From NCBI RefSeq assembly GCF_904846075.1, contig NZ_CAJGZH010000003.1, positions 124,001 through 188,000 on the forward strand: DNA of 64,000 nt. Direction: 5' to 3'. The DNA comes from Psychrobacter glacincola (GTDB lineage: Bacteria; Pseudomonadota; Gammaproteobacteria; Pseudomonadales; Moraxellaceae). Every line of letters starts with the position of its first letter. Position 1 is the first letter of the stretch. Positions 44,159 to 55,003 of the stretch are shown here, in pieces. Below the pieces are notes generated by a model that was not told the DNA's origin, made no database searches, and worked only from the letters and a program-made list of their open reading frames with translations. A program made the translations under genes and the position numbers.

Positions 44159-44908
44159 ATGACGACACACAATATGTTAATCGCCCCTGATTTTTCTCCT
44201 GAGCGTTTTGCAGGCTGGCACATGTTTAATATTTTGATTCAAAAACGTGCCAACCTAAATATGCATCTGAACATACCTACCTCACATGCTGAACAAGAAC
44301 AAATCATTGAGGCAGGTGACATTCAAGTTATCTATGCCAACCCATTTGATGCAGCTACTTTGATCCGTGAACAAGGCTATCGCGCTGTTGCACGCCCTAT
44401 CGGCAAATCGGATGAGATGGTCATTGCTGCTGCGGCAAACAGTGATATCAAGCGCTTAGAAGACATTAAAGCGGGTGCGACCGTAGCAATGGCAGACAAC
44501 CGTGATGTTAAGCTGATTGGCTTACGCTTGCTAGAAGCTGTGGATATAGAAGAGTCTGATCTTAACTGGGATATCACTGAGACTTATCAGGCAGCCGCCC
44601 GTAAAGTCATCAAAGGTGATGCTCAAGCGGCTTTCTTCTTGGCAGAGATTTTTCATAGCTTTTCACGCTTGACCAAAACTCAGCTGTCAGTGCTAATCGA
44701 AAGTGATTTGGCAGATATTAGCCATGTATTACTGATTAAAGATGGCTTTCCTGATACAGAAATATTCATGAATGCGATCCTGAACTTGCATAATGATGAC
44801 GATGGTAGAGAAGCATTGGCTGAACTTGGCATGCCTCAAGGGTTTGAAGCCATGGACGAAGAAGATGCTGAATTTATGATAGATTTGATGCAAACTTTAC
44901 TTGATTAA
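44159..44908 (+). CDS. PhnD-like substrate-binding protein without signal peptide
   Basis: 249 residues of the PhnD/PBP-type fold (phosphonate and similar ligand receptors): NIPTSHAEQEQIIEAGDIQVIYANPFDAATLI, RPIGKSDEMVIAAAANSD, then DNRDVKLIGLRLLEAV and KGDAQAAFFLAEIFH (quoted in parts). There is no signal peptide or lipobox and no permease or ATPase nearby, so it probably acts in the cytoplasm as a ligand sensor. It starts ATG three bases after the PAS gene stop, implying one transcript and translational coupling. Ligand unknown. Confidence 0.8.
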   Translation: MTTHNMLIAPDFSPERFAGWHMFNILIQKRANLNMHLNIPTSHAEQEQIIEAGDIQVIYANPFDAATLIREQGYRAVARPIGKSDEMVIAAAANSDIKRLEDIKAGATVAMADNRDVKLIGLRLLEAVDIEESDLNWDITETYQAAARKVIKGDAQAAFFLAEIFHSFSRLTKTQLSVLIESDLADISHVLLIKDGFPDTEIFMNAILNLHNDDDGREALAELGMPQGFEAMDEEDAEFMIDLMQTLLD

Positions 44909-46332: not shown

Positions 46333-46742
46333 ATGTTAGAACAAATCTTATCCTGATACAGTATTGAAAGGATATTTTCTATGTATGCTTAGTTGGCTTA
46401 TTTATCCTTATCATTTCCAAACTTTGAAATAAGTGCCATGATGACTTCTTGAGAATTAATTGGATAAGACTCATTACTTATAGATTGAAAATCTTTAGGG
46501 GCAAATATTCTTTGAGCAATTTCTGATTTTATTTTATGTTGCTCTTCTTCAGGTAACGAGGCTATATAGGGATTGATAGCTTTCAAATCTAGTGATGTTT
46601 GAAGGTGTGTATACTGTTGCTGACGATGCTTAGTAGACTCACGCGCTAAGTAAGCAGCTGGCACAGATAATAAGAATACTAATGCTAATCGTAAAAGAGC
46701 ATTAGAAAGGTCGAAGCTTTGGTGTATAGACTCCCAAAAAGA

Positions 46743-46750
46743 ATATCCAG
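46743..46750. repeat. Target-site duplication, left copy
   Basis: ATATCCAG directly before the left end of the IS element; an identical copy follows the right end at 48053-48060. Confidence 0.88.
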
Positions 46751-48052
46751 GGGAGTTTCCCAAACTTTGTGTAACTGCTTATAATCCACTAACCGGAGAA
46801 TAAGCAATGACTACTCAATCTGACATTAAAAAACTGGCCGAGCAAATGGCCAGCAGCATGAACAGCTTTGATGATATCAAAGACTTCCAGAAGCAGCTCA
46901 TGCAGTCGTTTATCGACACTGCCCTTGAAGCTGAGATGGAAGACCATCTTGGCTACCCCAAGCATGAAAAGGCGGATAAGCCAAACAAGCGCAACGGACA
47001 TACTAGAAAGACCGTCCGCAGTGATAGCGGCGCGCTTGAGATCTCCACCCCAAGAGACCGTGATGGTGACTTTGAACCTGCGTTAGTGCGTAAGCATCAA
47101 ACCCGTATCAGTGGCCTTGATGATAAAATAATCATGTTTTATGCCAAGGGTCAAACCACCACTGAAATTGTCGAAACCATCAAAGACATCTACGACGTTG
47201 ATATATCAAGCTCTCTTGTCTCAAGAGTCACGGATAACCTCTTAGATGACATCACCGCATGGCAGAACAGGCCACTGAGCAGCATCTATCCTATCGTCTA
47301 TTTGGACTGCATCGTCGTGAAGATACGTCAAGACAAGCAGATCATCAACAAGGCTATCTATCTAGCGCTAGGTGTTGCTCTTAACGGTAAAAAAGAGCTG
47401 CTTGGTATGTGGTTATCAGAGAATGAGGGCGCTAAGTTCTGGCTGGGCGTTCTCACTGAGCTACAAGACCGCGGAGTACAAGACATCTTAATCGCTTGTG
47501 TCGACGGCTTAAAGGGCTTCCCCGATGCTATCAACACCGTTTATCCCAACGCTCAGGTTCAGCTGTGTATCGTGCATATGGTGCGTTACTCCATGAAGTT
47601 TGTACCATGGACGGATAAGAAGGCCGTAGCGGCTGATTTAAAGGCCATCTATGGCGCTGATACGCTTGAGATGGCAGAGGCCAATCTTGAGCACTTTGAT
47701 GAGGTGTGGGGCGAGAAATACCCGCACGTGGTTAAGTCTTGGCGCAATAACTGGGAGGGCTTAACGGTGTTCTTTGGCTACCCTAAAGACATCAGAAAAG
47801 CGGTTTATACCACCAATGCGATAGAGTCGCTAAACAGTGTGATTCGGACGGCGGTGAATAAGCGTAAGGTGTTCCCCTCTGATCAGGCTGCATTTAAAGT
47901 GGTCTATTTAGCAACTCAGCAGGCATCCAAAAAGTGGTCTATGCCCATTCGTAACTGGACGTCTGCTTTAAATCGCTTTATGATTATGTTTGATGATCGT
48001 ATTAGTAAGCATTTAATCTAAATGGCAGTTACACAGAATTTGGGATGGTCTC
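46751..48052 (+). mobile_element. Complete IS256-family insertion sequence
   Basis: 1302-base element bounded by imperfect terminal inverted repeats of about 28 bases (left 46751-46778, right 48025-48052; 22 of 28 positions match by my count, best in TCCCAAA and TGTGTAACTGC). A single transposase gene fills it. The 8-base duplication ATATCCAG on both sides marks a simple insertion, fitting the IS256 family (8-9 bases). Matched ends and an intact transposase suggest a recent insertion that may still be active. Confidence 0.93.
46807..48021 (+). CDS. IS256-family transposase
   Basis: 404 residues, full length. The DDE triad is readable: Asp167 in VYLDCIVVK, Asp233 in ACVDGLKGF and Glu340 in TTNAIESLNS, at almost the same positions as in IS256 itself. 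Other family segments: DHLGYPKHEK with the NGHTRKTV basic motif, ISTPRDRDG, and FFGYPKDIRKAVYTTNAIE. AACCGGAG precedes ATG 46807. It lies wholly inside the element. Confidence 0.95.
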   Translation: MTTQSDIKKLAEQMASSMNSFDDIKDFQKQLMQSFIDTALEAEMEDHLGYPKHEKADKPNKRNGHTRKTVRSDSGALEISTPRDRDGDFEPALVRKHQTRISGLDDKIIMFYAKGQTTTEIVETIKDIYDVDISSSLVSRVTDNLLDDITAWQNRPLSSIYPIVYLDCIVVKIRQDKQIINKAIYLALGVALNGKKELLGMWLSENEGAKFWLGVLTELQDRGVQDILIACVDGLKGFPDAINTVYPNAQVQLCIVHMVRYSMKFVPWTDKKAVAADLKAIYGADTLEMAEANLEHFDEVWGEKYPHVVKSWRNNWEGLTVFFGYPKDIRKAVYTTNAIESLNSVIRTAVNKRKVFPSDQAAFKVVYLATQQASKKWSMPIRNWTSALNRFMIMFDDRISKHLI

Positions 48053-48060
48053 ATATCCAG
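48053..48060. repeat. Target-site duplication, right copy
   Basis: ATATCCAG directly after the right end of the IS element, identical to 46743-46750. Confidence 0.88.
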
Positions 48061-48974
48061 CTATCACAATGATGACTGCCATGCAAAAAATTGATCCCCC
48101 TCTCAACCATTCGGCAGCTATTTTTTCTTGTTTTGCGCTATCTGCATACTCTGAGACAATCACTCTGCTTGCTGCATTACCTAGAAGCTGATCTAACTGA
48201 GCATTCTTATCATTAATAGCTTCTAGCTCTTCTTCGTATGCTACTGATATGCTCTTAATTTTACTATCGTATATACTTTCTAATGACTCTATTTCTTTTT
48301 TTAACCACTTAGCTTGACTCTCGCTTTCAGCTAATAAGTTTGTAATTTTATGCTGATGCTTTTCAAACTCTTTATTTGTTTCTCTTAATTGCTTCTTGAA
48401 GGATTTGTAGTCTTGCATATCACTCGATATCTGCACACGAGCTTCATTTGATAAAGATACAGTTAAAATTGGTGAGTTTTCTATTGTTTTTCTCAGTTCA
48501 TAAGAAATACTTTCTAGCTTATGAGCTAAAGCCTTAGTTTCTTCATCTACATCAATTTTCTTTAAGTTTTGACCAAATGCCGCACCATAAACACAAACGA
48601 TTTTAGCCGACTCAGCTATTTTTTCTGGACTATTTCCATCTAAGGAAATCTTATAAACTTCGTAATTTGCCACAAATCTATCAATGTAATCTCTAATATC
48701 TTTCGATACAGGTCTATTACCAATTCCATCTCGAACTTTGTTAAATAACTCTAATATATTAGCTATACCATTTTCGAACTGTAACAGCATATCTTCCATA
48801 GCACTTCCAATCTATATACATAAATCGATAATTATATATCAGTTTGAGTATACGAAATCCAATTAGTTTAACTAGGTAAATAATTACTTAAGCAAACTGC
48901 CACCTTGAATTGCCGTTTAAAGGTCACTTTTTAACATTTTCGCGGGATAGCTAAGAGGTTATTGATATTAATAA

Positions 48975-52543: not shown

Positions 52544-55003
52544 CTACTCTGGTAGCTCATAAAGTAATTTGTCGAGGGTAATAGGAAAGTCATAAACTCG
52601 TACACCCACGGCGTTGTAAACGGCATTAGCAATAGCAGCGGCAGCACCGGCAATGGCTGTTTCGCCAATACCTTTTATATGCATTGGATTGGTGTAAGGA
52701 TCGTCCTCTTCTACCAAGATAACATCAAGCTGAGGAACATCCGCATTGACTGGGACATGGTATTCTGCAAGATTATGATTACATAGCCGACCGTCACGCT
52801 TATCATGAATAACCTGCTCCATCAATGCAGAACCAACACCAAATATCATACCGCCATAACACTGTGAGGTCGCGGTTTTGTGATTGAGGATACGCCCTGC
52901 TGCAAAGGCGCCTGTCATACGTTTAACGCGTATTTCACCAGTCACTCGGTGTACAGCGACCTCGGCAAAATTAGCACCAAATGACGCTTGGCGATGACTT
53001 TTTGCATTTTTACCCGGTGCAATTTGACCTTTGGCACTGAGTTTTTGGTCATCATATTGAGCGACGATATCGGCTAATGAATGAGTCTGGAAACTACTAA
53101 AGTCATATTCTTTCGATTCAGTTAGTGGGATTCCAGTTATTTCAGCTAACTTATCTTTTAAATCAGCCACTTTATCTACGATGTTATCGCTCAAACCTGC
53201 TACTTTTTCTTTTCCTGCTTCTATAACGGTTTCTACCACTGTTTCTACAAAATTAGCATCATGCTCACCTATCTGCTTAATTTGACCGTTATCCAGCTGA
53301 ATGGTGTCAGGGTATAGACCGACTTTTTCTGCGATCATTTCACGTAGCTGCTGACAAGCAAGGTAAATACTACTGCCTGAACTGGCAGCGCCCATACTGC
53401 CCCCTGAGCCTACCGCAGGTGGCAAACTGGTATCACCAAGCTTCATTTCAATATGATCTATTGGTAGCCCTAATAAATCTGCAGCAACCTGAGTAAATAC
53501 GGTATAAGAACCTGTACCGATATCGGTCATGTCTGTCTCAATCACAGCTTTGACGCCTAGTGCTTTTGAGTTATCTATTTGCAGGGTCGCCCGTGCTTCT
53601 GATGGCGCTAAGCTGTTGCCGCGAGCTGCCGCTGCCATACCCATACCCATCCACCAATCACCTTCTAAGCGACTGGCAGGCTTAGCATTGCGTTGATTCC
53701 AGCCAAACTGTTCAGCCGCTTGATCCATGCAGGCAATAAGCTTACGCGTGGAAAACGGGATGTCTTTACTAGGATCTTGCTCAGGCTCATTACGACAGCG
53801 TAGCTCGACAGGGTCTAGGTTGAGTTGCTCTGCTAATTCATCCATCGCACACTCAAGGGCAATCTGTCCGACTGCTTCGCCGGGGGCACGCATCGAGCCT
53901 GACAATACTTGATTCATATCTACTTGTTGGTAATTGACTCGGCGATTGTCACCGCGATACAGATAATGCGTAGAGAGCGCTGCTGGCTCAAAAAAGGCCT
54001 CTCCTGACAAATTACTAGAGACCGTCTCATGAATCATAGTGTCGATAATACCGTCTTCACTACAGCCAATTGCGATGCGTTGACGCGTGTTTGAGCGTCT
54101 AATCGTTGCCTCCATTACTTGCGGACGTGTCATAGTGATTAACACGGGACGACCCAATTCTTTTGCGGCGAGTGCGGCGGCTATCGATTCTGGAGAAATT
54201 CCCAGCTTGCTACCAAAACCCCCACCGACATAACGAGCGATTAATTGTACATTTTCTGGATCCAAATCTAACGCATCAACGATTTGCTTTTTGCACGAAG
54301 AAAGCATTTGATTAGACGAATACATAATCAGCTTCTCACCTTCCCAGTGAGCAAGCGTTGCATGTGGCTCCATCGCTGCGCTGTTTTGACTTGGGGTATG
54401 ATAAAAGCGATCAAGGGTTACTGCAGCATTTGCGAGGCTTTGTTCTGGATTACCCTTTTCTGAATTTTTATCCGAACCTTTTTTTTCATTAACCTCATGA
54501 GCATTTGGCAGCTCTGTCGTAAAGTTCAATGCCGCCTGCTCAGTCTCATCTTCATAAGTCACTTTGAGTGCTTTTGCACCTTCGGTCGCCGCCTCAAACG
54601 TCTCAGCGATAACAACCGCTATCGGCTGACCATGATAAAAAATCTCACTGACGCCTTGTTTAGGTGATTTAGTTGCACCGCCCTGTTGTGCATTGCGTAA
54701 AAAGTGCTCAGGATCAGTAACTACTTTAATAATGTTGGGAATACCCTCTAAAGAGCTGCTATCAATTTGCTTAACGCGTCCTTTGGCAATCGTTGCGCTC
54801 ACCAAAACACCATAGGCTTGATTGTCTAAATGAATCTCTGCCGTATAAGGCGCTTGACCACTGACCTTGAGTGACCCCTCAACTCGGTTGATGGGCTTAC
54901 CCACCAATTTACTCGCTGTTTTATCAAAAAGCGACTCAACTGGTGCATTCATCATCATCTTTTTGGTCGGTTCTGACGGCAATACTGAGTCCAATAATGA
55001 CAT
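52544..55003 (-). CDS. Molybdenum hydroxylase large subunit (PaoC/YagR-like)
   Basis: 819 residues, xanthine-dehydrogenase/aldehyde-oxidase family subunit that binds the molybdenum cofactor. Key segments: RYVGGGFGSKLG, MRAPGEAVGQIALE, GTGSYTVFTQVAA, GSGGSMGAASSG, and the catalytic glutamate in KGIGETAIAGAAAAIANA near the C-terminus. The YagR/PaoC subfamily is about 730 residues; the excess is largely a helical insert near residues 582-641. Together with the FAD and iron-sulfur subunits it likely oxidises aldehydes or a purine; the substrate is not fixed. Confidence 0.9.
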   Translation of the reverse strand: MSLLDSVLPSEPTKKMMMNAPVESLFDKTASKLVGKPINRVEGSLKVSGQAPYTAEIHLDNQAYGVLVSATIAKGRVKQIDSSSLEGIPNIIKVVTDPEHFLRNAQQGGATKSPKQGVSEIFYHGQPIAVVIAETFEAATEGAKALKVTYEDETEQAALNFTTELPNAHEVNEKKGSDKNSEKGNPEQSLANAAVTLDRFYHTPSQNSAAMEPHATLAHWEGEKLIMYSSNQMLSSCKKQIVDALDLDPENVQLIARYVGGGFGSKLGISPESIAAALAAKELGRPVLITMTRPQVMEATIRRSNTRQRIAIGCSEDGIIDTMIHETVSSNLSGEAFFEPAALSTHYLYRGDNRRVNYQQVDMNQVLSGSMRAPGEAVGQIALECAMDELAEQLNLDPVELRCRNEPEQDPSKDIPFSTRKLIACMDQAAEQFGWNQRNAKPASRLEGDWWMGMGMAAAARGNSLAPSEARATLQIDNSKALGVKAVIETDMTDIGTGSYTVFTQVAADLLGLPIDHIEMKLGDTSLPPAVGSGGSMGAASSGSSIYLACQQLREMIAEKVGLYPDTIQLDNGQIKQIGEHDANFVETVVETVIEAGKEKVAGLSDNIVDKVADLKDKLAEITGIPLTESKEYDFSSFQTHSLADIVAQYDDQKLSAKGQIAPGKNAKSHRQASFGANFAEVAVHRVTGEIRVKRMTGAFAAGRILNHKTATSQCYGGMIFGVGSALMEQVIHDKRDGRLCNHNLAEYHVPVNADVPQLDVILVEEDDPYTNPMHIKGIGETAIAGAAAAIANAVYNAVGVRVYDFPITLDKLLYELPE

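Follow-up and report, generated by a model that had tools for sequence, protein, structure and literature searches.

The insertion sequence and its target site

The window analysed here, a stretch of 64,000 nucleotides from Psychrobacter glacincola, carries an ISPssp4-like insertion sequence of the IS256 family (1302 bp, positions 46751-48052, plus strand) inside a gene that is read from the minus strand, the whole arrangement occupying positions 46398-48799. The sequence ATATCCAG lies on both sides of the element (46743-46750 and 48053-48060), and the two copies enclose exactly 1302 bases, GGGAGTTTCC...GGATGGTCTC. The first-pass annotation, made from the letters of this DNA alone, had proposed an insertion with an exact 8-base duplication at this place, and both were confirmed base for base by reading the sequence and by scripted removal of the element. 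The chance of an 8-base match at fixed borders is 4^-8 (~1.5e-5). The matched ends that it had also described are imperfect terminal inverted repeats, the left one of 28 bp (46751-46778, plus strand) and the right one (48025-48052, minus strand) agreeing at 22 of 28 positions. A 21-nt core of these repeats was recovered by an independent search, and a search with 27 bases of the right end as the pattern, allowing up to three mismatches, gave one occurrence in the window and none in 100 shuffles.

The element encodes a transposase of 404 amino acids (46807-48021, plus strand), in which D167, D233, and E340 were assigned as the catalytic residues on the basis of what we take to be the DDE motif. 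The protein matched the Pfam model Transposase_mut (PF00872, E-value 3.9e-115) and the NCBIfam IS256 model NF033543 (1e-121, 406 bits against a cut-off of 150), in agreement with the proposed family. Staphylococcal IS256 belongs to the same family as the window element, the two having been compared via the family models.

Copies in the genome and known relatives

The host genome (five contigs, 3.30 Mb) contained seven matches to the element, comprising four near-identical copies, two copies of a sister element at 89% identity, and one end fragment. The 404-aa frame was kept in two of the four near-identical copies and in both sister copies. One near-identical copy (L002, G000:C1:1241672-1242973) showed no differences from the window copy over 1302 bases. 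In the copy L003 (G000:C1:531389-532692) one base was lost, and in L004 there was a small local change; the transposase frame was broken in both, either by decay or by assembly error. L003 and L004 share the ends of the window copy and are flanked by 8-bp duplications of their own (CTTTTTTT and CGCTTTTC, respectively), and the element borders therefore hold beyond the window site. L003 was inserted in a T-tract after a terminator-like hairpin, at a site that is empty in P. immobilis and thus provides a second empty site.

The two sister copies (L005/L006) have the 8-bp duplication CAGCGGAA within identical printed flanks and for this reason look like a duplicated segment. They are located on contigs C4 (29.6 kb) and C2, and a larger segment may be duplicated. 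No target duplication was found at L002, so that not all copies are simple insertions; an adjacent deletion is perhaps responsible. L002 lies near a phage-type integrase gene and near a fragment that is presumably IS3-like.

Members of the IS256 family have one transposase gene filling an element of ~1.3-1.5 kb, produce a target duplication of 8 or 9 bp, and transpose through circle intermediates. The window element has a DDE transposase, imperfect terminal inverted repeats, and a 404-aa reading frame in 1302 bp, and the duplication measures 8 bp at the window copy, L003, L004, and L005/L006, with L002 as the copy that has none. The accessible part of a review also places IS256 among the families with a circle-type intermediate (PMC9330008). 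The duplication seen in the window most likely arose from a staggered 8-bp cut during the usual IS256-type transposition, which transposase from an intact-frame copy would have carried out in the manner typical of the family.

The closest named relative of the window element, as judged by sequence comparison, is ISPssp4, whose plasmid record, assigned to the published plasmid on the basis of strain and length, aligned over the full length at 88.6% DNA identity with a differing left end. Since insertion sequences are regarded as the same element at a DNA identity of at least ~95%, an assignment to ISPssp4 was rejected, and by this rule the window element would rank as a distinct member of an established family. 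According to the accessible part of its description, ISPssp4 (plasmid pP32BP2 of Psychrobacter sp. DAB_AL32B) is also 1302 bp long with one transposase gene, shares the right end GAGACCATCCC... with the window element, and is flanked by an 8-bp repeat, in its case CTTAAAAA (PMC6514802). A full-length element annotated as encoding an IS256 family transposase was found at 90.3% identity on a Moraxella osloensis plasmid (CP040258.1). Other Psychrobacter genomes contained full-length copies with the same ends, at no more than 91% identity among the candidates scored, the best being in genome G078. Contig ends of that genome carry 111-base pieces with 97% identity to the window element, and a closer, collapsed copy may thus exist there. 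The copy counts across the genus are lower bounds, with three candidates scored per genome; for 14 genomes the scan was repeated, scoring as many as 29 candidates in each.

The interrupted gene

When the element and one copy of ATATCCAG were removed, the two gene pieces fused into one open frame 1092 bases long (363 codons and a stop), reading ...IAGYSFWESI... across the join exactly as the first-pass annotation had it. The 5' part of the gene (codons 1-249; 48053-48799, minus strand) continues in the window for seven codons into the element before reaching a stop, giving 256 amino acids in total, and the 3' part (46398-46750, minus strand) holds the second predicted membrane helix and the conserved C-terminal region. 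The break after residue 249 is near the end of the first predicted membrane helix, the hydropathy profile of the joined protein peaking at residues 237-255 and 264-282. The homologue of P. fozii was predicted, at low overall confidence (pLDDT 74.1, pTM 0.34), to be all-helical, with a long coiled coil that continues into a membrane helix and a turn separating the latter from a second one. In the alignment 33 of 39 invariant columns are situated behind the break, a count based on seven rows and biased by two of them being fragments without the N-terminal part; on this alignment the conserved C-terminal region lies mostly behind the break. The truncated product is probably non-functional.

Neither of the two gene pieces matched a Pfam or NCBIfam model at cut-off, and PADLOC gave weak matches only (best E-value 0.0041). 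The seven aligned family members searched against Pfam reached a best E-value of 2.9e-4, with hits spread over unrelated families, and all seven matched PHROG 29215, a group of unknown function. One weak phage match to the family was obtained (25% identity, E-value 4e-4), and a plasmid search with the gene family returned no match.

Using an intact homologue as query, with one genome per species, the gene was found in seven of 105 genus genomes, the window genome included. Six of these carry a close homologue, namely the window genome, P. immobilis 1617 (G008), Psychrobacter sp. JCM 18900 (G009), P. fozii CECT 5889 (G017), P. pacificensis (G079), and JCM 18903 (G089); the homologue in the seventh (G035) is distant (30%). 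Uninterrupted frames of 368-377 amino acids are present in JCM 18900, P. fozii, P. pacificensis, and JCM 18903, i.e., in four of the six close carriers. More remote homologues (38-44%) were found in Vibrio, Duganella, and Pseudoalteromonas. Between the window gene and those of JCM 18900 and P. fozii the C-terminal half hardly varies, whereas the N-terminal half has diverged strongly, a pattern that points to intragenic exchange or diversification.

A neighbouring gene of 208 codons stands beside the interrupted gene in all six close carriers, at a distance of ~1 kb in JCM 18900 and P. pacificensis. A survey of this neighbour covered 30 of the 79 neighbour-bearing genomes, and 22 of the 30 loci were counted after leaving out eight that lay on the other strand and had been read on the wrong side. 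The gene was present at four of the 22 loci and was not found within 1.5 kb of the neighbour at the remaining 18, and it is therefore considered accessory. At the 18 loci lacking the gene, the HdeD-like gene (12 loci) or the acetyltransferase gene (six loci), both also present in the window, was found in its stead.

The empty site in P. immobilis

A relative with an empty site deviating from the predicted join had been named in advance as the finding that would overturn the proposed insertion. The proposal stood up to this test: in 665 bases that span the join, the P. immobilis contig L012 was 100% identical to the empty allele as predicted, and it has ATATCCAG once. We assign a probability of about 0.96 to the reading that a multi-copy IS256-family element transposed into an accessory gene and cut its protein after residue 249. 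The recency claimed in the first-pass annotation is likewise upheld, by the identical flanks in P. immobilis and by the second genome copy with no differences.

Outside the element and the duplication, 3300 bp between positions 44597 and 49206 were without any difference from P. immobilis. The long blocks aligned to this species had identities of 93.8, 97.7, and 95.2%, the block at 97.7% including part of the tract. Going by the alignment, this stretch is best read as the product of a recent exchange involving the P. immobilis lineage. Its borders are uncertain because identity in 500-bp windows is patchy (80-100%) and another such window (53000-53499) also reaches 100%.

The intact joined frame and the exact repeats would be in keeping with the insertion acting as a reversible switch, in which precise excision between the 8-bp repeats would reactivate the gene. 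Restoration of the gene by such an excision, as put forward in the first-pass annotation, is true on paper. We consider a switch improbable, since in the single assembly available the insert is in place and no excised allele was observed, and since excision of IS256 is reportedly transposase-independent, in the words of the title of a paper on its mechanism, which suggests a rare event. A precedent exists in Staphylococcus epidermidis, where, according to the accessible part of a review, an IS256 insertion in sarA was reversed by clean excision (PMC11178275).

A second break in the same gene

The gene of P. immobilis is itself broken, at codon 176, where one piece runs into a contig end (L009) and the other begins at a contig start (L012). 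The two pieces overlap by four bases (TATA), and both contig ends carry the inverted termini of another element. The sequence at the C2-side end was found in nine copies at 100% in P. immobilis, the break site included, and in one further copy at 78%; a search of the window genome with this end gave no match. Only synteny, the inverted ends, and the four shared bases link the two contigs, the middle of the element being unseen, and the P. immobilis gene is apparently broken by another multi-copy element. The two short coding ends of this element had no Pfam match; judging from its motifs it may be IS630-like.

Multi-copy elements give rise to misjoins, and the P. immobilis contigs break at just such a place, which raises the question of whether the window element was misjoined into an intact gene during assembly. 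We regard this as very improbable, given that the window genome was assembled into five contigs and that the 8-bp duplication is perfect in the window and single in the empty allele.

The remaining alternatives, like the switch considered above, deal with what the insertion signifies and do not conflict with the transposition reading. The gene may already have been disposable when the element arrived, in which case the insertion would be neutral and uninformative on the gene; to this we give a little less than an even chance. An accessory gene with close matches in six of 105 genomes, broken in P. immobilis as well, in a genus rich in related elements, is what would be expected if so. However, the gene shows no lesion other than the insertion, its frame is unbroken once joined and does not differ from the P. 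immobilis allele at any aligned base, and its C-terminal half is highly conserved among relatives.

Alternatively, the gene may be a costly newcomer whose loss was favoured after acquisition, so that independent insertions were repeatedly picked up. An identical allele broken at two different sites in two carriers, and thus two broken genes among six close carriers, would fit selection of this kind, which we nevertheless think unlikely: four carriers are intact, the P. immobilis genome holds nine exact matches to the end of its break element (this place included) and a chance hit is thus not improbable, and the count covers this one gene, with n = 2.

Order of events

With an empty allele available whose flanks are identical, the events can be placed in a likely order, namely an exchange followed by two insertions. 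The gene region would first have been exchanged recently with the P. immobilis lineage, the window lineage would then have received the IS256-family element in the gene, and a different element would have broken the P. immobilis copy in a separate event. That one recent exchange was followed by two independent disruptions is, at n = 2, only suggestive. It is rather unlikely that the gene, shared by two sister species through the same exchange, was inactivated independently in both by different elements because producing this membrane protein carries a cost away from its donor background; if true, the pair would amount to a naturally replicated case of selection against a gene of recent acquisition. 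The insertion is routine in kind and is useful as a well-dated example. The break in the sister species, the accessory status of the gene, the 3.3-kb stretch with no difference, and the two broken transposase frames among four copies go beyond the first-pass annotation.

A 68-bp miniature element

A separate observation concerns a 68-bp sequence that resembles both ends of an IS256-like element of this kind joined together, and of which the window genome has a copy at L119:1501-1568 (G000:C1:1420788-1420855). Some match to it, the ends of full elements included, was obtained in 84 of 105 genus genomes, and full-length copies at 100% were found in at least 43 places in at least 37 of the 105, with at most eight candidates scored per genome. 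It was also present at full length and at least 99% identity on eight plasmid records (H12-H19) from Psychrobacter, Acinetobacter lwoffii, Moraxella osloensis, Klebsiella, and an uncultured bacterium. In the stretches read it adjoins copper-type, mercury, and other accessory genes. No recognisable description of the 68-bp element was found in the literature search, as far as the sources were accessible, and the accessible part of one paper (PMC10969869) contains no mention of IS256. The accessible part of another describes MITEAba12, which is related to ISAba12, mostly 113 bp long, and flanked by 9-bp duplications (PMC6382973). The 68-bp element may matter more than the insertion itself, with regard to the spread of metal-resistance modules among Moraxellaceae.

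Among the loci fetched, single exact copies had an 8-bp duplication in none of 19 distinct flank pairs, and the flanks were mosaic, a given left side being found with differing right sides and vice versa. In one Psychrobacter genome (G028, L129:2103-5849) two direct copies, of which one has a single mismatch, bound a 3611-bp segment that carries genes for a thioesterase, ArsB, an ArsC/FMN-reductase fusion, and an ArsR-like regulator. The outer borders of this unit, the sole composite pair seen, carry the exact 8-bp duplication CAATTGGC. The repeat that served as target occurs elsewhere in this genome in three uninterrupted copies (L149, L150, and L151), each of which shows the site once. This outer duplication and the three empty sites show that the arsenic-resistance operon moved as a composite unit.
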